Origin: Corallium rubrum
Taxonomy: Eukaryota; Cnidaria; Anthozoa; Scleralcyonacea; Coralliidae
Assembly (NCBI GenBank): GCA_964035015.1
Contig: OZ036006.1
Span: 10,680,316 to 10,744,315 of the forward strand
Length of the DNA: 64,000 nucleotides
Direction: 5' to 3'
Shown here one piece after another: positions 25,961-42,939 of the stretch. Under the pieces are notes generated by a model that saw nothing but the letters and a program-made list of their open reading frames with translations, made no database searches and had not been told where the DNA came from. How positions within the stretch are numbered: the stretch's first letter is position 1; the number at the start of each line of letters is the position of its first letter. The position numbers were made by a program, and so were the translations under genes.

Positions 25961-26628
25961 TGCTGGGGGCAACACGTGCGCGCTAATTGGAAAACTCGGA
26001 CAAACAACATTGCAGCGACATAGCGAAGTGCGCGGTTTATAATCGGTATATAAATATGTGACAAAATTCGGCTGCCGTGTTATCGTTTGTGTTAAATCTT
26101 TCGTAGAATATGGAGAAAAGCGCCATAGAGAAGAAATTCAATGCTATGAAGCTCGCGGATTTAAAAAAGTATTTATTAGACCGAGGAGTGAGTGTTAATA
26201 GCTATCTTAAACCAGGGCTGGTAGCCATTGCTTGTGCCGTGGAGCAAATGAATCTTCCACTACTAACCCGAGTTAGCAAGGACGAGGAGTAGGTAAATGT
26301 AAGACAACGACTACATATACATGGTTGTCAGTTGCCAGATCCTTTCTCTATGAAAGTAGAGAACGACTTCAAGAATTCCCCTCCATTTGGCCTCTTCGAC
26401 ATCTTCAATCATCTAATATACCACTCGTCTGGGTATGATAAACAAGGTCTGGCAGCCTACAAGTCTTACGACGATTACCGCTTGTTCGACGATGGATATG
26501 TGGAATCGCTGCTTACCCTTTATCTTGAGCATGTTGGTGTTCATGTTTACGTAGGTAAGGTCAAGCCGGCGATGAGGGATAAAACAAAAGATGGCAAACA
26601 GTTTTACGACTTGTGGTTTGTTCTGGAA

Positions 26629-26635
26629 GGAAAAG
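26629..26635 (+). repeat. Target site duplication, left copy (GGAAAAG)
   Basis: GGAAAAG abuts the left TIR. The same 7 bases lie directly after the right TIR at 40157-40163. Joining the flanks through one copy keeps the YqaJ gene in frame (LEGK followed by GASRGS). Confidence 0.9.
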
Positions 26636-27572
26636 CATAGGTAGCCCAAACACAGTTTGTGAGTAATAAATACTCCTTTATTTACATTTCCAATGTTATA
26701 TTTCGTGCTTTTAGACTGTAAAAATGCATACTATAAACATGTGATTGTCCACAACATAAATATTATGTATATCACTCATTTGTAGACTACAGAGCTGTAT
26801 TTCAAAGGCTGTACTTCAAAATCTTCGTCTGGTATTTATATATTTACTTGACGTACCCCCTGTGGTGTTCAGCTCTTTAAACCGTCGCCTAAGTATTGAC
26901 TGTTGTTATATCAGTATTTTTTTACTCTAAATATACACAAAAGTCTAGTATACTGTTCAGATAAACTCCCTAGATAATGTAGCATCTAACAGGCACAATA
27001 AACAAATTTACTTACGACATGAGCGGTCTGAAAGCGCGCTTGAATACCAACGGTCGCTGCGGCCAACGCGGCGGAGGAGCAGAAGAGGGAAGAGAAAGAA
27101 AAGGTTGGCAAGCGTCATGCCAGTCTCGCGTTACATGATCGCCAATAATGCCGTCTAACTCCGCTCCACGGAAATTTCCACCGACAAGATTATGGCCATT
27201 TATCAAATGATCACTGTGCTTCTAAGCCAAGCAGTTCTTTTGAAAAAAAATTATTTCGTTAACCAGAAATTTCGCTTCAAATCACAGCGACATGCCTCCA
27301 ATTTGCGATGTGACTAGGCGTGGGGTGAACAAGGTTCACAACGGAAGATTTTCAAATTCAAATCTCGCGCGTTATTGGTTTATCGTAATTAGATTAAAAC
27401 GCGCTTTGAGCATTTCCAGGGGGTGGACTTATCGGGTAACAAAACTGGTTGTAGTAACTGTGGCAGTTTCGGAGTTCGATGGCGCGTTCACGTTCTCGTG
27501 GCGCGCTTTGACGACACAGTGAAAGTATGGAGGATGATCGGATCGAAGCGCACTCCTCTAGCCAGGAACCTT
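26636..27572 (+). repeat. Left 937-bp TIR with promoter and start codon
   Basis: Equal in length to the right TIR, and the reading frames inside are identical in both. I noted four substitutions by eye (near 26,655, 26,740, 26,790 and 26,878). The innermost 46 bases are coding: ATG at 27527 and the first 15 codons of the helicase. The promoter must lie upstream of 27527 and therefore within the TIR or beyond it. Confidence 0.9.
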
Positions 27573-30500
27573 TACGGTAAGTTTTAAACTTTTCATTTAC
27601 TATTTACTGTCGGTTTTATATAACAAACATTCAACAATATATTGGTCGATAGCCAATACCATGTGTTCAATGCCGTTTAGACATGAATATGTATGAAGCT
27701 TTTCTATACAAAATGATTGCCTTTAATCTTTATCCAGTGCACGCACTGGTTTTATCGCGTAAACTGTAAAGAAGTAATAAACTTGTTAACTGACGCCCAA
27801 ACGTTAAAAAGAACGACCAATTTGTGTCCGATCGCTTGAAAGTGTTCATGCTGCTGTTTGTGTATTGTGTATTGGAATGCTGTTTGTGTATTGGCGTGGT
27901 CTTCAATAGTGTCAAATTGCCCAAACATTTACCTAATAGATTTACTGGTTCTTATACACAGGTTTTTACTGAATTCACACATGTTGAATATCTAATCTCT
28001 TCTATCCCTAGCAAGTCACTGATTTACCGGGCGGAAATCGTAATCGCAAAATGAATATAAGAGCCCAGCTCAAAATTTTAAAATGCAATACCATAACGAA
28101 AGGAAACCATTTAAAACAAAATATATGTATTGACGTTTCGTTACTTAACCAGTAACATCTTCAGAATGAATTAAAGATTACATAGAGAAAATAACATTTT
28201 AAAATGCAAATTTATTCCATGTATTATTGTTAATAATTAATATACATGAAAAAATTTCTCAATTCTGATTGGCTGAGGGCAGTGCAATTTCATTGAAACA
28301 CAGTGCCAAAAAATGAAATTCATGCAATGTTTGGAAATTTTTTTAAATTTGTGCAAAAATCATTCTTGACTAGAAGAAAACCTCTTCCTGTTAAATTTTT
28401 TTTCATGCATGTTATTTGCACAAAGCATTTTGATTTTGAAAGATTTTCTTCATGCTAAATTTTTTCATGTACATTATTAATAAGTAATAGCATGTTCTCT
28501 CGTGGAATTTGAAAAACACACACTCGTGAGTTTTTCAAAGACCTCAAATAGCACTTGTTCTTCGGACTCATGCAATTTTGATAGTCTTTGAAAAACTCAC
28601 TCGTGCATGTTTTTTCCAAATTGCACTCAAAGCCATGCTATTACCTATACAAATCTAATTGTAATTACAGTTTACAGTACACTATTTTTTATATATTTTA
28701 GATTAACAGAAGATCAAGAAAGATTGTGTGCCCTTGCACTTAAAGGCCACAACATTTGTATAACTGGGAAGGCAGGGACAGGAAAGTCAGTGCTTGTGGC
28801 CCATTTGCAAAGGTATTTAGCAAGACTTGGCAAAAATGTTGTCATCATATGTTCAAGTGGTTTATCATGTAAGGTTTACCAAGAGGGGTATGTGAGAACA
28901 GTTCATTCACATTATGGTCTTCAAACTGCAGAACTTCCTTTTGAAAGACTTATTGACAGATCCCTTAGAAGAAACAATGTGGACAATCAGGTGAAGTCTG
29001 CAGATGTAGTCATTTGGGATGAGGTTTCAATGTCCAGTCAAAGGATACTTGAAATTGTTAACAGAATCCAGCATTTGGTGTTACAGGCCAGCAAACCTTT
29101 TGGCGGAACACAATTTGTCCTTATTGGTGATTTCTGGCAGTTGAGTCCTATTACAAGTGCAATCGATGGTGGAAATTTTGCATTTATGTCAGAAATCTTC
29201 AACATTGCCTTTCCTCATCGGTTTGAGTTGACAAGCATCATTCGACAAGATCATTCCCAACAGGCATTAATAAATGCATTAGAAGATCTGAGGCATGCCA
29301 GGTGCACTGATGAATCAGAGGTGTACATCCGTACTTTGTCAAGAGAAATGTCAAGAGAAATACAAGCTGAAGGAACTTTGCACATTTTCTTCAAGAGATT
29401 GCCAGTAGAAATCCACAATTTCAATGTTTTACTTAGCATGCCTGGTAGAATGTTCACATTACATGCTGAAGATAAGGGGAACATTGCTAAATTGGATGTC
29501 ACCATTGCAAAGACCATACATTTGAAAGAGGGTTGTAAAGTCATGCTGCTGTACAACATAAATAAAGACCTGAGGAATGGTTCAACTGGTGTTATCTGCA
29601 GAATTGAAGAGGATAGTCTTCTAGTTAACTTTCTAAAAGTTGGCCTGCAGCAGATTACCCGCCAAACATGGTTTGCCACTGGAAGGTCAGGAAAAGTTTT
29701 GGGTAGCCGTGTGCAGTTTCCAATTGTGCCATGCTATGCAGTCACAGTACACAAGTCACAAGGCATGACACTGGACAGTGCTGTGGTCCACTGTTCCAAG
29801 GAATTTGTTCATGGACAAACCTATGTGGCAATGTCAAGAGTAAAGAAGGAAGAGCAGTTACAAGTTGTTGGCTTTAGGAAATCGTTTCTTTTGCCATTGC
29901 CTCAGGAACTCTTGATGTTTGATCCAACACACAACACAATGTTTTTGGAAGACCAAACATGCTGCAACAATCGTGTTGTTGAAGAGAACTTATTTCTTGT
30001 GCACGACCGGGAAGATGAAGTGACAACTCCAGAAGCTGAAGATCCTATTGCTGATGAGATTCAAGAATCAGCGGCAAGGGAGTATTATGAACAGATAGAA
30101 GATGCTGTGCCTGTAAACCTGGAAGATGTTCTCATTTCACTGGATGAAATGACCAACAAGCTGTCATCACCCCCAGAATCATTTGATCATCAAGGCTTTC
30201 TGCAAAATTTCTTATTCAATCATGATGATCCTCTCTCCACTGGGATCAATGAGGCAGTTCATTTTGGTGTATCAAACCTCGACAATTTCAAGTTGCTGAT
30301 CAACATCATCTGGTGTAGGATTTTTCTTCTTTTTAAAGAGTTCTTGTTTGAGAATGTGGACACTGTTCAAATGACAAACAAGAACTTTTTCGAGGCCACT
30401 GCTAAGATTAATGGAATGTTCCTGTCAAGTGAATACAGAAGAGATATCACAACAGCTTTTGGTGAATCCTGCTGGCAAAATATCACCCCTGGCCAACAAG

Positions 30501-31969
30501 CTATTGGTGCTCAGATGGTCCATGGTTTGTTTCAGCTTTTCATACATGAAATTGCTGAATGTATCCGACAGGTTGAGGTGTCTGAACCTGTTCAATTCTC
30601 TGTTGAACAGATGAATGATACTGGAAAGGGGAAGGTGCGCTACATTGGTGGATGGGCTGTGCGAAAAGTTCTCCAGTCAAACCGAAGATACATTGTGGAC
30701 AACAAATTTTCCACTAATGCTGATGTTAGAATGAGACTGGCCAGAGAATGGCGCAAAGCAGAGCTGTTGGAAAATGATGTGATAGTGCAATTTGAAGCTC
30801 TTTCACGTACCACAGAGGCTGTTGAAACCCTTAATGTCACTGAGGCAAAGCAATTTCGTGGCAGAGGTCTTCTTCATATCAGTGATGAAGCATATAGATT
30901 CTTTCTTCTGCTAGAACAGCGAAGAGTTGACCAGATCAATGACTACAGACTTCTTCATGAACAGATTAACATGGTGGAAGCTGGATTGGTCAATATCCGT
31001 AACAATGAAGAGCTGCAGGCTAAATTTCAAGAGCTGTTTAAAACTAGCACAAAAGAAGATGAGGTGTGTAGAACAGTAAATGTATATGTACAAAAAATAA
31101 TAGTACAAAAATATACATATCAACACAGTATGTTACTATACATTTTCTAAAAGCTAGGTTTCAGCACATTCCCAACAAATATTTTATCTGTGTACATGTT
31201 TTGTATAAGTAAATATAGTAAGTTTCTTATTAACATCAAAATCTGGTATGTGGGTTTACCAGAACAGTTCTACCTTCTTTTAATTATCAGGCCTAAATTC
31301 ATTTAATTCTTATAGAATATCATAATACAAAGACCACTCTGTACAACCAATATCCGAACTTGCTGAAGAAAATTTTGGAACATTTCTAAAAGCAATTTCG
31401 ACCAATTCAGGTAGTCTACTACCTTAACATATAAATTAAGCTTATGTTAATGTTCAATTTTTATGTACATGTAGGTGTTGATTCGAGACATCTTTGAAGC
31501 AGTTGTAACAAGATACATTCGGATGGGTGTTGGGCAATATCTCAAAGATTTCAGAAGAGATTACAAGTTGAAAAAGGTTGCTGCTCACAGGCATGCAGTT
31601 ATGCAACGAAAAGAGAAGTCACGTGAGAAAAGCCAGAAGGTGCTGATACCACACATCGAGCAAGACATGAGTCCAGGAAAGAGAACATCACATGCTCGCC
31701 TGGTTTCCTTCCTTTCAGAATTCAGGGAAGCAGGCTTGGTAAACGCATACACCAAGGCAGAGCTCGTAAAATTATGCAAGGCTTACAACATTCAGGTTCG
31801 TACCAACTGGGTCAAAAAGAAAATGTGTAGTGAACTTGCCAAGTCAATTATGACAAACAACAATATCCCAGTATATCAATTGCTGAACAGCTACTGTGTT
31901 GTTCCAGCATCCAATAACAGTCAAGTTGCTCCTAACACTGTACCTGGGATAAGACTGCGAAGAATTTGA
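27527..31969 (+). CDS. Pif1-type SF1B DNA helicase with SAP-like C-terminus
   Basis: Exon 1 (27527-27576) encodes MEDDRIEAHSSSQEPL and ends in phase 2 at a GTAAGT donor. Exon 2 (28702-31063) restores the frame (LTEDQERLCALAL). Helicase motifs: Walker A GKAGTGKS, Walker B VVIWDEVSM, GDFWQLSPI, and the C-terminal motif AVTVHKSQGMTLDSAVV with YVAMSR. These are characteristic of Pif1/RecD-type 5'-3' helicases. A 400-residue extension follows (including KVRYIGGWAVRKVLQ). Exon 3 (31475-31969) is basic and ends with a SAP-like segment (YTKAELVKLCKAYNIQ). A possible extra exon at 31316-31410 has good splice sites but contains a TAA. The intron at 27577-28701 holds MITE-like sequence. It likely acts on DNA during transposition or repair, by inference. 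Confidence 0.85.
28115..28620. repeat. Repeat insertions in the helicase first intron
   Basis: GACGTTTCGTTACTTAACC with CATCTTCAGAATG near 28,130-28,175 resembles a motif dispersed in invertebrate retroelements. 28,255-28,615 contains hairpin halves (CTCGTGAGTTTTTCAAAGAC against GTCTTTGAAAAACTCACTCG) typical of a MITE. Confidence 0.45.
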
Positions 31970-32879
31970 AAACATTTATTGTAACTTACAGTACAAACTA
32001 AACTTACTTATATTGCAGTATTAAAAGTAAGGTTATGAAGAGAAAATTATTTATGATAATCTGACAATGCCAAAGTCAACCAAAAAATGTTGACTCCAGT
32101 GGGATTCGAACCTGCACCTTCGGGAAATTTCAATTGACTTTGGCAGTGTCTCTGAGGATAATTGTGAAAAAGAAGTAAGGTTATATTATGTACATGTATA
32201 TCGATGTACACTGTTTAATCCATTCCTGCCTAGATGGCCTCCCCTTGACCAAAAAACTCTCTGGTGTTAGCCAGAGTAAAAGGAATAGGTTAATTTTGAT
32301 ACGGTATAGTTTCTTAAGAAATGTGTTTACTGACTGAGATAAAGTGCTGTACAGTAGATTCTTAAGCTATTCTTGCCCAGATCAGTAGTCAGAGTAAAAT
32401 TATTACAGGCCAGCTAGACAGGAATGGGTTAACTGAGATGTTAATGCTATTATTTTGTAAAATAATTCCTTTGATTATTTGTAATATTACTGTACCGGTA
32501 CAAGTTTTGGTATTTAGAACTGTTATGCTAATGATTAAGGTACATGTAATTGTTACACTTAATGATAATTATTGTAAATATTGGTACATTTAAAAAAATA
32601 TTGACCCTAATAATGTATGTATTAATACAGATACATCAGATTACTGTATCTGGTACTCAGGGATGACATATTTGTTCTTACAAAAATATTCCAGTAATTG
32701 TGTTTGTTATCCCTACATGTAAAAGAATCCATTTTAAGAACCCTTAATTTTTTTATTCCACAAAATACATTTAATTATTCATATTCATCCCATAAAATTG
32801 AAAACACAATTACCGAATAATTTTGTTGACCAAGTAAGAATAATAAAGCTTTCCCCTCAGTTTGGTGTTATACATGTAT
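31970..32879. other. Space between convergent helicase and transposase genes
   Basis: Holds a truncated tRNA-derived SINE on the minus strand at about 32,085-32,160 (box B GGTTCGAATCCC; no box A found) and AT-rich sequence. Both genes should terminate here. I see no further coding sequence. Confidence 0.55.
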
Positions 32880-35776
32880 TTATTGAGTATTATTTTTCTT
32901 CCTGGAGATATGGCCCATGGGAAGCTGAGCTTCAGTATCATTCTTTTCAATGCCTGTGTTGCTTTTCCTACTAATTATTGACTGCCCAAAGATAACTGCA
33001 TTCTGTGTGCTCTGTGTGAGTAAGTAGGTTGGGTTTTCATTTTGGGCATTAGCTCCTCTCAATTGAGAAAAATGATTTTCACATGCATCCTGGTTGACAA
33101 TGGCTGGTCGTACAATTGCTTCAGGGAACTTGGACAATTTATAGCTCACCATGGCAATAAATCCTTGAATCAATGATTGCAAGTCAAACCATAGTTTGTG
33201 TGAAATGAATTCCTTACCGTCCTGACACTGAGAGTTCCATTTCTTGAAAAAGTCAAGACACTTCTTCATATTTACAAGACGTCTGTCCTGAACACTATAT
33301 ATGAAGTGCTTGTCATTAAAAAGTTCCACCAGATGGCTTGTGTGCATGAGGAACTCTAATGTGAAGTCCAATCTACTGGAATTTTGTCCTGTTTTGTCCA
33401 CATGCTCCTTGTATGACTACAGAAAAAAGCAATATCTTACTAAAATATTATACTGTTTTCTCCTTTCTTCCCAGTGGCTGGGGAGGGGGTTGTCAATGTT
33501 GCTGCTGCTTTACAAACTGTATGCACATGTTACATCATGTACATACAGAAATTATATATCCAGTACAGTACTGCAGTACAGCCACAGTGTAACCATGAAA
33601 ACAAGACAGAACCAATTCATAGGCATAACTTGGCACAAAATTGCTTTAAACATACTGCAGTGTAATGCATTGTCTTGCAGAGTGCAACTGTTCTTATACG
33701 TATTATTAACTTCAACGGCAGAGTGCCTCGAATGGATCTTTGAGTCCCATTTGTGCTCTTCTTGCTTGGGTAATAGCATCCAATAAAGTTGTTAAAAAAA
33801 CAGCAAAGATGGTTCGGAGGTACAGTAGTTTAATCTGCAGATAGTCAATGTGCAGTCTGTGACACTCTACTGTACCCATCTGTGTTTGCTTCAGACTTCT
33901 GCAGATTGCCAGCAGGTAACTGAGTCTGGCTAAAGCATGGGTATTCATATAAACTACGAATTTCCATTATCTGGGTCACATAACCCAAACAAAAACCCTA
34001 ATCGGTAATCTGTAACAGGGTTTACATGCTACAGTGTAGCTTATATACTACCTGACCCACCAAATTAGACTGAGTGTATAAATAAGCTTATCTGCTTTTG
34101 GGCACTGACATAGAATGCCTGTGATTTAGTAAAACTCTAACTGCACAGTTACTTGTTGGCAATACTGTATTCCCACACATCGTATGTTTGGGAGGAGGGC
34201 AAATGCCATGCATCTGGCACTCTGACATCCCAAAAACACTAAAGCACATACTGGGTACAAGAACAGTAGACAAAATAAAAAAATTAATTTCTGTGACCTA
34301 CAGTAACATGTACACAACCCCATACATAAATATTTATGGCTGGCATACATTACCTGCATAAGAAACAACATTTTCTTATCCAAAACATCTTCTGCCAGAT
34401 GGTTTCTCATTCTAGAGCTTGGTGTAAGGCTAAAGTGCTCTTCAGTGAGTTTTTCATGGATGTGCAATGATGTTGTACTTTGATCCCAATTGTATGCCTC
34501 TTTCCAGTGAGACCAAAGCATCTGTTTCCCATTGAATATCAAACACCTTGGACTGGCAGTTCTGCAACTCTTCTCCACATTATTTCTCAACTTTTTAAAG
34601 TTGTGCTATAAAAATTTGATCAAGCAGATAATTAACCACAAACCAGTATTAATTTCTAACAAAAACACCTGTACTAATGGCTAGTAGTCATACTGTACAT
34701 GTAATATTGTTTTGGTGGGGGATTACATGTACCTTGCCAGCTACTGGTACATGTACCCGTCAAAAGTAAAACTGTCTGGAATCAGAGTAAAATTATAAGT
34801 TTGTCAAATGGCATTATGGCAACAACAGAACTACAGAAGGTAAAAGGTTAATTGGGCAAAAAAACATTAGAGACACCTGTACACATAATTATTACTCTCC
34901 ACAATCTAAAACAAGGTTATAAAACCCAATTTATATGGTAAGGATAATTATAAATAATTGTAAACCCCCACAATTTGTGATTTTATAAGAATAATACGGT
35001 ATAATACCCCTTACTATTTTTACCTTACAATCCATAATAAAGAACATAGGATCTCCATTATATACATTGTAGCCTTGAAAATTAATATCCCAGGGATTAA
35101 TGCATCCAGGAAAATGCATTTTAATAAGTTGGCGATTAGATTCTCCACCATCACTAATAAGGTAGTAAACACTATAAAACACAAAAAAAATCATTAAATT
35201 ACATTTGTTACCACTGTATTCTACTGCATCACAAAACATTCAAAGACAAACATTTTAGTGAAGTGTGCCGAAAAGAACACAGAGAAATTAAGAATGCATG
35301 TTCACTTGTATGAATGGATATATATATATATATATATAGTTTTCAAAAACAAATCAAGGTTTTAAAAATATTTAATTTTTTCACATGACGTGTGCAAAAC
35401 CTCTATACCATGTTTTTATTATTGTATAAAATTGTTTTCTATTTCTTTTATAACTTCTGACTCATGTATGTATATATATACATATACATATACATATACA
35501 ATATGAGTAGCCGTGTTGTATACGATTTACAACCACGAGCCGTAGACGAGTGGTTTTAAATCGTATACAACACGGACACGAATATTGTATATCACTTATC
35601 CAACGTCTAGGCTAGTTATTTCGTGTTTTACTAAAATTTTCAAGATAAAAGTGAATCTGGCTGAGAAAATCTAACTTAAAGTTTATGCAAACTAGGACGA
35701 TGTTGTATCAGATATACAACCTCCTTCACGGTCATGATTTCTTTTGTGTTTTCTTCATGAATTATTAATGAGTTGG

Positions 35777-35842
<66 letters not shown>

Positions 35843-38800
35843 GTCTGAATAAATTATGCAAATACGTAATCAATTAGACTTATTTGTATAGGTTATAATT
35901 CTCTTTGATTTTGATATTAAATTATGGTAACAATGAACAATGGTCCTTTTCTGTGTTTTCTTTTTTGAGTTTTGTTAGCTAAGACTAATAAAATAGAATA
36001 TTCTATATTTGTTTTAGATATTAATTATGGTGAGCATCTTGGATCCCGTTGCAAGCCATCCAAGATGGCCAGCATAATTAGAATCTAATAAACCTATGCA
36101 ATGTTTTATTGTATTAGCCTCTTTAGTAACCAAACTAATAGAAGAAAGATTCATTTTTCACTTTTATCACAATTTAATATCAAAATCAAACAGAATGATA
36201 AAATATGCAAATAATTCTAATTACATGTAATTAATTATTCACATTTATCATAATTTATTCAGATACTAAAATACAAAATTGAAAAATTAACAAAATTGTA
36301 TATTTTGCTATGTTTTTCAAGGAACTATGGTGTTCAAGAAGCGAATCAAGGTTTTATAAAAGTTTACATTTGTCACGTGACCCATGCAAAGCCTCTTTAT
36401 TGCTTAACTTGCCTGAATCCAAAACGTTTCATTAAAAGAACTCCTTCCCAGAATTTAAAATACAAAATACTTGGGTGACATGTGTTGGTTGCAAAGTGTG
36501 CCACAGGAAACCTAAAGCCACCATCACCTAAAAATATGAACTGCAGCAATTGTGTTGCAATGTTGATTTCAGGCTTTCCTAGAAATTGAACAGACTTGGA
36601 ATGTAGTGGCTAAATAGTAGCAAAGAAAAATATTGAGCAAATACATGTACACTGTAGGTGTCCAGGTATTCACAGCGGCATTTATACCTTTCACAATGGT
36701 ATCCATGTCGTGAAAGAACTGCCCAGTTGAAACAACTCCAACCAAGCGGTGAACCCCATCTCGTAATGTCATTTGTAAATCTTCCTATGGGAAAATACAA
36801 TACAAATAATAATGTAAAGAGAATGAAAGAAATGTACATGTACTGCAAGAGACGTCTTAACCCATTCCCTCCTACAGTATAGGCTGCCTAAACTGCCCTG
36901 GCCTCTTTCCTCTGCTGAATAAAATTGTCTGGCATTAGCCAGAATACGACTATAAACACTTGGCTCAGGAGGGAAAGGGTTAACAAGACAGATTAATGTA
37001 AGTGATTTATGAATGACCTTTTAAATCAGCTTTGAATCAATTTTACTTTATAACTCATAAAACACCATGTACAGGTACCACTGTCAATGCTCATACCTGT
37101 ATCTTCATTTCATCTATAATGAAACAACCCCACCGATCCCCCTCTTGCAACTTTTGTCTATCCGCCTCTGATTTGCACCATTCTGCCACATCAGATTTCC
37201 ATCCTGACTCTTGAGGAATAACATTTTTGTAGTACCTGAAGTAATATGACAGGAAGTCACAACTGTATAGTCTGAGCTTTATTATCAAGTAAAGCTACAA
37301 GTAGCTGCAGTGTTACCTGTATCTCTTTTAATTAAAAAAGTATTTGTATAGGTACATGTACAACATGATGTTGTACTGGCGAAAACAAGTATTTGTCATA
37401 CAGTACACTGTACCTGATCAGCCTGTTGCTTGGTAACACTATAAAGTTCCTCAATTGATCCAATACTCTGGGATTTTGGCAATATAAATGCAGGCATAAT
37501 CTGATGATGCTAAATAGTAATAAAATAACAAGATAGACAAAATAATACAATAAATTAGATAGAATTAATGAAATATGATCTACAGTATAAAACTGTATTA
37601 AAATTGCTATATAAGAATTAGAAATAAAGAAAATTAAGACAGTATGTATACACCATGGCAATTTTTCTGAAATGTCATCAGATATCCAAATGATAATCAC
37701 CACCATTAATTTCATACATATGCTGTACGAGTGACAGTATTTACAATATGTACAGTAGATACCCATACACACATATGTACATGTACGTACTGTCACTAGT
37801 AATTTTTGACTCTAAAAGGGGACCGGTTTGATTTAATTTGCCATCAAAGTTCTTGATGTCTCAGATTGCCACCAAGAGCCCTGAGTTGCACCAGAATTTA
37901 AAACAAGTTCACTCTATAAACTTACCCAGAATTCCACCTGTTACCCTTCTTGGACTTTGCTGACAATTGTTTGATTTGCTCCTGCCACAACACTTTCATT
38001 CCATCAGGGACATCCTGCTCTCTACATCCTTCAAAAATCTTGCACATGTCATCATCATCTTCTTTGCATAACACTACAACTTCTGCCAACTTCTCTCGCA
38101 CTCTTTCTTCCCGGGTTTTTGCCCTCTTCAATTCCTTCTGCTTAGTGGAGGCCTTTTCTTTTAAAGCACTAAAATCCAAATACCTATTATTGCAAAATGG
38201 ATTTGGGGTTTCAACCATCCTATTCACTTTTTTATGGTATAACTTATTTACATAGGAACAATTACTACATGTCCCATCCAATGATCTGGCCAAGATCAAG
38301 CATTTGGTTGATATCATTTGGGTTGTGTTGACACCACATTTACTGGTCGCTGTTACTTTCGTCTGATGGTCACCTTTTGCATCGTATAGTGGAACGTTGT
38401 GTTCAACAGGAAAACCTACACATACAGGACTAACTTCCAGTACCCTTAAAACTGTGTCTAGATGGATACACTCAGGCTGCCAAAAATCTAGCTCATTGAT
38501 TGGAACACAATTTCCATGGGCTCTTATCGTAATGTTAGCAGGAAAGGCAGACAGTTCAAGTTCAAGTTCAAATCTTTGCTCTTCAAGTAATACTTCGTGA
38601 AACTTTTTGGTTATGAGTAACTTGCTCTCACTTACTACCACACTCCAAGCAGGAAAGTTCTTGTCAATGAATTTTTGCAGATGCCCCCCTAATTTTACCA
38701 CGTCAATTTTGTCTTGGTCTTTGCGGACTGTCAGATCGTCGTTGAATGTTTTGAGGGAAAGATTTGTGTAGCTTGAACTGTTTGCCACCTTGACCACTTT

Positions 38801-39265
38801 CTTTCCCCACACATCACAAATAATTCTGCCAACGGATGTTTTGCTTAATTTGACCCCGTCTATTCTCGCAGTATCAATAATGGTTTCGCTGGAACACGAA
38901 TGCCCTTCTTTTCTCTCATAATGATCTATCAACCTACAGTACAAAAAATAGTTACAAGCCAAGATCAGCTTCAGAGTACACGAATCAACAATATTACGTG
39001 TTTAAACTGCAACTTACAATCTTGTAAACATGTGCCATACAAGATATGCTCTTAAAGAATCATCCTCAGAGATACATGAAGAGAAAATTATTCATGATAT
39101 TAAATCTGATGATATAGTATGCTATTCGGGTACTAACCATGAAAGACTTTGGATAGTATAACCAGTTCCTTTACGAAGTACCACAGACCGATTACTCTCA
39201 GTTTCCTGGCTTTGGAAAGAAGGTTCCTGGCTAGAGGAGTGCGCTTCGATCCGATCATCCTCCAT
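32880..39265 (-). CDS. P-element/THAP9-like transposase
   Basis: Exons recognised 5' to 3': 39265-39138 (in the TIR; MEDDRIEAHSSSQEPS), 38933-37926, 37509-37414, 37235-37097, 36784-36688, 36578-36471, one or more near 35,235-35,020, 34605-34354, and 33416-32880. The phases agree across the first six exons and across the last junction; the 35-kb exon borders are unresolved. Family signatures: CLHLYCQNPRVLDQLRNF, FIIDEMKIQ (first catalytic Asp), QFIFLGDGGFRFPVAHFAT, SDGGESNRQLIKMHF (second Asp), KLRNNVEKSC, HIHEKLTEEHFSLTPSSRMR, and VNQDACENHFSQLRG with NENPTYL (acidic cluster). These match the RNase H-like and insertion domains of P/THAP9 transposases. No THAP zinc finger is seen; a CSNCSY pair lies at the end of the N-terminal domain. 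Its role is TIR binding, excision and integration in the nucleus. Confidence 0.85.
35480..35840. repeat. Hairpin and (AT)n tract in a transposase intron
   Basis: GTGTTGTATACGATTTA and TAAATCGTATACAACAC form inverted arms at about 35,511-35,575. A relative of this hairpin (CGTGTTGTATTGAATACAAT) occurs near 20,555. A pure AT run spans about 35,780-35,838. Confidence 0.75.
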
Positions 39266-40156
39266 ACTTTCACTGTGTCGTCAAAGCGCGCCACGAGAAC
39301 GTGAACGCGCCATCGAACTCCGAAACTGCCACAGTTACTACAACCAGTTTTGTTACCCGATAAGTCCACCCCCTGGAAATGCTCAAAGCGCGTTTTAATC
39401 TAATTACGATAAACCAATAACGCGCGAGATTTGAATTTGAAAATCTTCCGTTGTGAACCTTGTTCACCCCACGCCTAGTCACATCGCAAATTGGAGGCAT
39501 GTCGCTGTGATTTGAAGCGAAATTTCTGGTTAACGAAATAATTTTTTTTCAAAAGAACTGCTTGGCTTAGAAGCACAGTGATCATTTGATAAATGGCCAT
39601 AATCTTGTCGGTGGAAATTTCCGTGGAGCGGAGTTAGACGGCATTATTGGCGATCATGTAACGCGAGACTGGCATGACGCTTGCCAACCTTTTCTTTCTC
39701 TTCCCTCTTCTGCTCCTCCGCCGCGTTGGCCGCAGCGACCGTTGGTATTCAAGCGCGCTTTCAGACCGCTCATGTCGTAAGTAAATTTGTTTATTGTGCC
39801 TGTTAGATGCTACATTATCTAGGGAGTTTATCTGAACAGTATACTAGACTTTTGTGTATATTTAGAGTAAAAAAATACTGATATAACAACAGTCAATACT
39901 TAGGCGACGGTTTAAAGGGCTGAACACCACAGGGGGTACGTCAAGTAAATATATAAATACCAGACGAAGATTTTGAAGTACAGCCTTTGAAATACAGCTC
40001 TATAGTCTACAAATGAGTGATATACATAATATTTATGTTGTGGACAATCATATGTTTATAGTATGCATTTTTACAGTCTAAAAGCACGAAATATAACATT
40101 GGAAATGTAAATAAAGGAGTATTTATTACTCACAAACAGTGTTTGGGCTACCTATG
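39220..40156 (-). repeat. Right 937-bp TIR with promoter and start codon
   Basis: Inverted copy of 26636-27572. The minus-strand ATG at 39265-39263 and its next 14 codons are identical to the helicase start. Identity between the arms stops at 39220, right after codon 15. Confidence 0.9.
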
Positions 40157-40163
40157 GGAAAAG
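40157..40163 (+). repeat. Target site duplication, right copy (GGAAAAG)
   Basis: Matches 26629-26635. It lies between the right TIR and the resumed YqaJ reading frame. Confidence 0.9.
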
Positions 40164-42939
40164 GTGCCAGCAGAGGAAGTGTCGTTGATGCGTATTGTGA
40201 ATGTCTAGGAGGACGAGACGGTGGATGTAAACACATTGCTGCTGCTTTGTACTCCTTAGAGAATCTATTGAATAGCCGTGGAGAAGAAAGCGTAACAAGT
40301 GGGCCTTGTTTATGGGCACGAAAAGCCCGACCGGATACGACTGCATGCGAGTTAAAAGATTTAACCGTCGCTAAGAAGAAAGTCGATTTCGCATTGGGTG
40401 AGAAACGGACTTACACGTTTTCCCAATACATCGACCATGACCCTCGCATTGGATGGGACAGACTGCCCTGCGGACCAGATGAACTTGAACCTGTGGTGCA
40501 ACGCATGAAGGTAGCTCATCTTGAAGGAAATGACCAAACTGCACCAGCTCAACCAACAGACCAACCAGATTCAGTAAAGCCAAATGATGGTGAAAATGAT
40601 CAGTATGGAATAATGGAAAAGAAGGTCCTTGCTTTTTTACAAGCGAATCAAGAAGCAGATGCACAACAGTTCTCCGAGCAACTGCACTTCACACAAGATG
40701 AAGTAAATAAAGTGGAATCAGCTACCAAGAAACAATGGCAATGTAAGCAGTGGTTCATGCACAAGACTGGCTTTGTTACAGCGTCAAAGACCAAAAGTGT
40801 CTACACAAGGCAAAAGTCAGTAGAGAAGCATGATACAGATGTTTCTCTTTTGGTCAATTCACTTATCAACAACAAAGTGTACATGCCCATAAAGAAACCT
40901 CAGGAAGACCCCAAAAATCCACTGGACTGGGGTCTGAAACATGAAAATAGTGCTCGTAAAGCTTATTACCAGACTGAGGGACGGAAGCACCATCAACTTA
41001 GTCTGGTTTCTAAAGGCTTTATTATTTCAAGTCAAAAGCCTTTTCTTGGGGCAAGCCCAGACAATGTTACCACATGCAGATGTAACCCTCCTTGCAGTAG
41101 TGTGGTTGTTGAGTATAAATGCCCATGGGTGCATAGAGACTCAGACCCCAAAGAAGCCTTTTTGACTCCTGAGATTGGTGGTTTATGGGAGAATGATACC
41201 TTTTCACTGAAGAAAACTTCCAGGTACTACTACCAGGTCCAAATCCAAATGTTGGTGACAGGACTGAAGGAATGTCACTTCGTTGTATGGACCTCTAAGG
41301 GAATTTTTTGTCACCGATTGTACCATGTTCCCACATTCACCGATGAAGTGTGTGGCAAGGTTGAAAATTTCTGGGTTGCAAATGTTGTTCCCAAGATGAT
41401 GGAGAAATTGCAATGCTTTATTTCTATATCTTCAGCTGGTGAGTATGCATTTTTATACAATGTATCATACATAAAAAGATATTGCCAATTTTGCCTATTA
41501 CATGTACATGATAGCTGTGATTTTATAATTATTTTATCTTTATAGCAAGACAGAGTTTCGGTGAAACCCAGAGCAATCCTGTGGTGGCAGATAATAACAG
41601 TCCTGTGTTTCAACCAGGTATAGCTTACTTTTTGTTCACCTGCAGTCTTTTTACTTTCATGTGGCTGTCTCAACTGTTACTACATGTGCACAGTGTTCTG
41701 CTATGTATACTTATTATGCACCCTAACTTTGCTGTATTTGATAACAGTGACCCAAACAGACACTGAAGTTGTCAACATTGAGCAGCAACCATCACAGAGT
41801 GCAAGTGGCTCCAAATCAATGCCGATGTTTGGTGTAGACATCTACCAAGAAGACTTGGATACACTACACCCTGGCGAACGCATCAATGACACAATGCTAA
41901 CCATAATGTTAAGGTATCAACCTACCAAACACTGCATGAAAATAAAAAAATAATTTATAATCGTAATTTGTACTATCATTGTATACTTGTCTAATAGTGA
42001 ATTAATGTATGTTTTTAATTTTCAGTGAGCACTGCTGTGAATTCCCAATTGTGGACAGTTTGTTTTACTCCATACTAGTTGGGGAACAAGAGTTAAGTGT
42101 CAGGACATCAACAAGGTTAGTTAACACATATTACATGTACAGTATTAAATTGTTCAAATGTTGGTTTTTTGAGTGATTTGTGTGTTTGTATTATTTAGAT
42201 CATTAAATGTAAAATATATTTAATAATTAAAGTTTACAATTATGATTCATAATTTACTGTATATTTTGCATCTTTCAGGTTGGAGAGAATGAAAGTAGCA
42301 GTGAAGTACTTCAAACCTGACCTTTTGAAAGAAGATTATGTGTTCATCCCTATCAACAGAGGGTAAAATTTTGCAATATTACCACCATTTCTACTAAATA
42401 TTTTTGCATAAATTCCAAAAGGCAATTTTCTTATGGCTTTAAATCCTATGTTACTGCTTTTTCTCTCTAGTCTCCACTGGTTTCTTGGTGTTATTTCTCC
42501 TTGGTAAGTATTATTAAAATCAATGTTCCATACATGTATAACATCTATGCAGTAATAAAAATGTTACAGGAATAAAATTTGCATTATATTTCTGTTATTT
42601 TTAATTAAGGCACATTCTGATCTTGGACTCATTAACCTGGGATATTGAGACACGAGAAACAGAATTGGACAACATTGCTAGGTACTGTATGTAACTGGTT
42701 TACAAAGTGTAATGTGTATCCAATAATGCATTCAATTCTGACATGAAAACATAAAAATTATTAATTATAATGTGCTTTTGTATAGATATGTTAATTATTT
42801 AACAGAAGTCGATGTTACATCGCCAAGAAAAGAACGACTGCACCATGTCCTTAAGGTGAATTAACTTCCAAAGTATATACAATTATATTTTTATCTAGTA
42901 TTTTACAGTGCAAGATTTTGCTTTAAAGGGATATGGCAA

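Follow-up and report, generated by a model that had tools for sequence, protein, structure and literature searches.

A P-like transposon of Corallium rubrum with a Pif1-type helicase and a predicted start exon common to its two genes

Can the terminal inverted repeats (TIRs) of a transposon reach so far inward that two of its genes begin with the same exon? This question is raised by a 13.5-kb element at positions 26636-40156 of a 64,000-nucleotide stretch of the Corallium rubrum genome (assembly GCA_964035015.1, contig OZ036006.1, positions 10,680,316 to 10,744,315 of the forward strand), which we call the window and whose own numbering is used here. The element ends in CATAGG and carries TIRs of 937 bp: the left arm (26636..27572, plus strand) starts CATAGGTAGCCC, and the right arm (39220..40156, minus strand), read from 40156 to 39220, differs from it by 4 mismatches, found only at sites 19, 106, 155 and 239 (offsets 18, 105, 154 and 238). 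Two ATGs lie at mirror positions in the arms, at 27527(+) and 39265(-). Both open with MEDDRIEAHSSSQEP and have 15 codons in common, and arm identity stops after ...CAGGAACCTT, one base beyond codon 15. An earlier annotation of this stretch, the original prediction, had reported these ends, the mirror ATGs with the same 15 codons in 937-bp TIRs, and the loss of arm identity one base after the codon block; the ends proved correct, the ATGs were confirmed to the base, and the edge was borne out by arm alignment.

As the TIRs extend inward past the start codon, each arm holds a 5' region and the first 15 codons. The reading that we consider likely is that the element carries a P-like transposase gene and a Pif1-type helicase gene, both read inward from TIRs that reach past the start codon, with a common predicted start exon.

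Two inward-reading genes and their insertion site

On the left, predicted helicase exon 1 (MEDDRIEAHSSSQEPLR; 27527..27576, plus strand) has its first 46 nt within the TIR and ends at a GTAAGT donor (...TTACG/GTAAGT, with the slash at the exon boundary). A predicted phase-2 splice joins it to position 28702 (ATTTTAG/ATTAACAG), the beginning of an exon 2 that encodes the Pif1-type core (28702..31080, plus strand; the 3' end is approximate and the frame is open to 31147). A possible exon 3 (31475..31966, plus strand, limits approximate) holds no confident domain. On the right, predicted transposase exon 1 (39138..39265, minus strand) also has its first 46 nt within the TIR, has a homologous exon in two other elements, and runs from 39265 to 39138 (...TCATG/GTTAGT) before a predicted phase-2 splice to 38933. 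The remaining predicted transposase exons, 2-9, span 32880..38933 on the minus strand: exons 2-5 at 38933-37926, 37509-37414, 37235-37097 and 36784-36688, and exons 6-9 at 36578-36413 (with a GC donor), 35171-35024, 34605-34354 and 33416-32880. Together, the nine predicted exons give an open frame of 856 amino acids. Both phase-2 joins had been put forward in the original prediction and stand as predicted splices. Helicase exon 2 reaches its first methionine at residue 110, after the Walker A motif, so that an upstream start is needed; transposase exon 2 does so at residue 206. Judged from these frames, both genes appear to need an upstream start.

The left gene encodes a Pif1-type helicase. 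Its exon 2 matches the Pfam family PIF1 (PF05970, E 3.4e-25), residues 1-393 match solved Pif1 structures in the Protein Data Bank (PDB; E 7.6e-45), and residues 272-386 match the PDB chain Helraiser (E 7.8e-19); the Rep family is absent from the best 25 of its 34 Pfam matches. The right gene matches TNP-like_RNaseH_N (PF21787, E 2e-8) with 35.1 bits against a cut-off of 24.6, and PF21789 below the cut-off (18.4 against 24). TNP-like_RNaseH_N includes the transposases of P and THAP9, and candidate acidic residues, presumably catalytic, lie in DEMKIQ, ISDGGESN and NQDACENHFS. Up to E 1, the transposase had only TNP-like Pfam matches, with none to a MULE transposase and none to THAP in the 856-residue protein built from the predicted exons; the region between the two RNase H halves, the place of the GTP-binding insertion domain of P elements, had no Pfam match, and the transposase core had no significant match among PDB sequences. 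Because a THAP domain was not found, target site duplications (TSDs) are 7 bp and TIRs are 937 bp, we describe the element as P-like instead of assigning it to the P elements.

The TSD, GGAAAAG, lies at 26629..26635 on the left and 40157..40163 on the right. A TSD of TA, suggested by the window flanks, was ruled out by the 7-bp duplications at other copies. The element interrupts an exon of a host gene (flanks 26293-26635 and 40164-41542) that encodes a YqaJ domain and matches SWIM weakly (18.2 bits, below the cut-off of 19.6); in the empty site, with one GGAAAAG copy retained, the flanks are open in frame across the interrupted gene. We regard the element as a young, probably autonomous, two-gene cut-and-paste transposon. 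Long inverted repeats are in general prone to mis-assembly, and mirror ends could arise in that way, but such an artefact is extremely improbable at this locus: the arms lead into different code, the TSD and the empty site are perfect, and both a second copy with another TSD and a sister element, described below, share the structure.

Further copies, arm homogenisation and sister lineages

A search of the 474-Mb genome with the arm gave at least 49 matches (the best 40 of 98 candidates were scored). A second full element, C298 (13,497 bp), has the same layout and a different TSD, gttctcc compared with GGAAAAG in the window, and is therefore an independent insertion. The four arms of these two copies have nine variable sites. 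At three of them (196, 399 and 819), the window and C298 copies differ while the two arms of each copy agree; the other six are single-arm variants, affecting one window arm (19, 106, 155 and 239) or one C298 arm (503 and 626). In addition, a 17-bp stretch is missing from both arms of both full copies and present in both arms of L039 and L043, the two short copies aligned for this comparison. At the level of the aligned arms, these data show concerted change, and sites 196, 399 and 819 uphold the TIR homogenisation that the original prediction had supposed.

Short copies retain both ends at 18 of the 20 loci examined, and 15 of these 18 have a perfect 7-bp TSD as read by eye (the exceptions being L049, L052 and L054). 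Among these non-autonomous copies, five (L039-L042 and L050) have two left-type arms that extend beyond position 937 into the helicase intron, four (L043-L045 and L047) have two right-type arms, and six (L052-L057) are palindromes of the outer TIR; in L046, L048 and L049, the arms partly extend beyond 937 into the helicase intron. The palindromic short copies suggest that one end was copied onto the other. Two longer copies, C56:2421402-2437560 and the one-armed C1:46481280-46486671, have short arm matches and no helicase or transposase match among those listed; the comparison of TIR edges with ATGs below covers the other elements.

The TIR also contains a 92-codon open frame (27244-27522 and its mirror, 39548-39270) that stops just before the shared ATG, and within which ATGCCTCCAATTTGCGATGTGAC is the same in all 12 aligned arms. 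Pfam has no match for 27259-27519, and the frame is possibly an upstream frame or regulatory block. A THAP-like reading of it (MPPICDVT...) was dropped, as there is no Pfam match and the second cysteine is present in 1 of the 12 aligned arms.

Searches with the two proteins extended the comparison beyond close copies. The helicase gave at least 62 matches (best 55 of 590 candidates scored), and the transposase gave 30 matches (41 of 41 candidates scored), which correspond to 25 loci when the tables are compared by eye. Helicase matches lie within about 31 kb of at least 18 of these 25 loci, in convergent orientation in each of the 18 cases; for the remaining seven, none is among the matches listed. 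These results point to a diverse family of helicase-bearing P-like elements.

The closest relative with both arms lies at C1:76380807-76393438 (12,632 bp, TSD ttatcag) and is referred to here as the C1 sister. Its two arms share 97% identity across their inner 839 bp, with simple repeats farther out, and its TIR is about 72% alike to that of the window over the inner ~740 bp, with poor alignment farther out. On both sides, the arms of the C1 sister end at the first base past MDEGDQADNSSQEQ, the homologous nucleotide. Its helicase exon 1 reads MDEGDQADNSSQEQLR/GTAAGT, continuing past the TIR edge as LR/GTAAGT, and its transposase exon 1 reads MDEGDQADNSSQEQSFQSDKFDSNQRGGFRKGTGYTIQGISW/GTAAGT, continuing past the edge as SFQSDKFDSNQRGGFRKGTGYTIQGISW/GTAAGT. 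The helicase donor and its flank are kept between window and sister: TTACGGTAAGTTTTA, 15 bases spanning the donor, is identical, and intron bases 27596-27635 are alike at only 12 of 40 positions. Another relative, C280, has the same helicase arm as the C1 sister and no second arm among the matches listed (best 40 of 174 candidates), and a decayed relative, C12, has an open transposase exon 1 and an arm match on the transposase side that stops at the same base. Comparison of the window helicase with those of the C1 sister (dN 0.131, dS 0.656) and C280 (0.132, 0.671) shows, at the codon level, purifying selection in the past. Inward-facing genes with a predicted common start exon, as the original prediction described them, thus recur as the same layout in sister lineages. 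Given a second full insertion, a sister about 72% alike and the need for an upstream start, the layout seems to be more than chance.

The common start weighed against decayed sisters and distant families

Several findings weigh against a start used by both genes. TIR transcription and splicing are predictions only. The C12 copy of helicase exon 1 has a 1-nt deletion and the C12 helicase has three stops, and the C1 and C280 helicases each have one TGA and frame breaks, with matches in separate pieces; as these sister copies are not intact, their layout bears witness to an earlier functional state. Conservation of the shared peptide is poor (MEDDRIEAHSSSQEP in the window versus MDEGDQADNSSQEQ in the sister), and exon 1 has a pN of 0.36 and a pS of 0.75 over 14 hand-aligned codons, at saturation. 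Of the common N-terminal tag in the original prediction, the 15 predicted shared codons therefore stand, but as a weakly constrained stretch. The C1 sister also has an additional in-frame ATG upstream within its TIR, which makes its exact start uncertain. Finally, three distant families, C8, D and E, have TIRs that do not reach the predicted helicase ATG.

Family C8 has a helicase with about 45% identity and arms that match along at least 1,386 bp; of the arms compared, eight stop at base 1386 of the query and two at 1383. Measured only from the CATAGG terminus of its helicase arm, the TIR would be 1,778 bp. Its inner edge lies 494 nt short of the predicted helicase ATG, and a candidate transposase ATG possibly lies inside the TIR. 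Family D (C1:80.3 Mb, C185 and C8:27.6 Mb) has three transposase-side arms that end at the same base. On the helicase side, the TIR of this family (L032 1-1021; L069; L070) falls 30 nt short of the predicted ATG; on the other side, it extends 26 nt into transposase exon 2, such that a 26-nt fragment of that exon is copied ahead of the helicase ATG; the exon-2 acceptor is inside the TIR, and no fitting donor was found by the pattern used. Family E, at C1:61.2 and 69.8 Mb, was compared by means of an arm from another element of the family, and the match of that arm stops about 109 nt before predicted helicase exon 1 (MN/R, followed by a phase-2 intron); the search found no convincing transposase start exon. 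Upstream searches for two further families matched only other repeats or partial copies.

With the predicted helicase ATG outside the TIR in all three families, a shared start is not required for such elements, and with edges 494, 30 and about 109 nt before the ATG, it looks derived and clade-specific. The TIR edge thus moves among families, and a start shared by both genes looks like a derived feature found only in the window clade, not a general design. We infer that the TIR grew inward past the ATG in this clade. Copies with TIRs ending before the ATGs, which the original prediction had named as counter-evidence, are absent among the four clade elements with both arms (window, C298, C1 and C12); they occur as the short outer-TIR copies L052-L057 and, for the helicase side, as families C8, D and E.

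The position of the helicase ATG in these families also bears on whether one gene only, most likely the transposase, uses the TIR ATG. The helicase-side ATG would then be a passenger, and the helicase would start elsewhere, for example at an in-frame ATG before exon 2; in the window, the frame ahead of exon 2 is indeed open and contains a methionine. In C280 and C1, however, an in-frame stop lies four codons ahead of helicase exon 2, TTACGGTAAGTTTTA is conserved on the helicase side beyond the TIR edge, and the phases fit. We therefore judge it improbable that the TIR ATG serves a single gene.

A different possibility is that arm copying alone made the TIRs long, that their edge fell within exon 1 by chance, and that the shared codons have no regulatory meaning. 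For the DNA, this amounts to the same as a common start used by both genes; the two differ on promoter use. The spread of edges (30, about 109 and 494 nt before the helicase ATG, and 26 nt into transposase exon 2 in family D) and the abundance of arm-copy derivatives are as expected from a chance edge, but lineages with about 28% divergence have their edge at a homologous nucleotide, and neither gene can do without an upstream start. A chance edge is, to our mind, somewhat unlikely.

If the common start is used by both genes, each gene would add its own remaining exons after the TIR-coded beginning. Transcription would start in each TIR, so that one promoter sequence would be common to both genes, and both proteins would carry a short TIR-coded N-terminus that is probably a by-product and does little by itself. 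Of the regulatory proposals in the original prediction, a single promoter sequence, kept identical by TIR homogenisation, may drive both genes, and joint repression of the two by transposase bound to the TIRs is conjectural. Copying between arms during repair after excision would keep the arms alike and would shift their boundary inward until gene-specific code is reached, and the helicase may assist the long repair synthesis that follows excision of a 13.5-kb element. More tentatively, we suggest a possible history in which a P-like lineage brings its own Pif1 helicase for repair synthesis and copying between arms in the course of this repair joined one gene's promoter and first coding exon to the other gene, such that one self-homogenising sequence controls both genes and begins both proteins.

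Comparison with known systems

If this reading holds, states before and after the change are found in one genome, and growing terminal repeats can take over the start of a gene and put two genes under one sequence. A P-like family with a conserved Pif1 helicase also makes it testable whether a transposon brings its own gap-repair helicase. A report that Drosophila PIF1 aids repair of a P-element gap makes this test concrete.

P elements are characterised by a THAP domain, TIRs of 31 bp and TSDs of 8 bp (PMC7776569); TIRs are 31 bp in Drosophila P and 27-31 bp in Anopheles, where elements measure 4.2-7.5 kb (PMC7776569, PMC1562414, PMC10983969); and zebrafish Pdre2 has 13-bp TIRs starting CATACC, with CATACCTGTCAAC (PMC10983969). 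The element resembles the P and THAP9 family in a transposase RNase H core that scores above the Pfam gathering threshold and in having a TSD, and its ends start CATA as in Pdre2. It differs in a TSD of 7 bp instead of 8 (in the window, C298, the C1 sister and 15 of the 18 short copies), in its 937-bp TIRs and length of 13.5 kb, in the lack of a detected THAP domain, and in a second gene that encodes a Pif1 helicase. Helitrons carry Pif1-type helicases joined to a Rep/HUH nuclease and have no TIR or TSD. The helicase of the element partly matches that of Helraiser, but TIRs, a TSD and a transposase of the RNase H type set the element apart.

Two genes that begin in inverted-repeat arms and diverge beyond the edge are familiar from herpesvirus US1/US12 and chloroplast ycf1; these are not transposons, and the analogy is one of layout only. 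Among transposons, MuDR has two near-identical TIRs and convergent genes, with transcription of both starting in the TIRs, a MULE transposase and a 9-bp TSD; to our knowledge, it has no shared coding exon and no helicase. The two genes, mudrA and mudrB, each have their own TIR (TIRA and TIRB), and the 3' portion of TIRA matches the mudrA transcript (PMC8224964). MuDR resembles the element in having two genes with one TIR each and provides a precedent for TIR-derived transcripts; the element differs in a transposase of another superfamily and a 7-bp TSD. Neither a shared coding start exon nor a P-like element with a Pif1 helicase was found in the titles and abstract beginnings of the open-licence papers listed by literature searches. 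What appears to be new here relative to the MuDR precedent is the predicted shared coding start exon, together with a P-like element that carries a Pif1 helicase.

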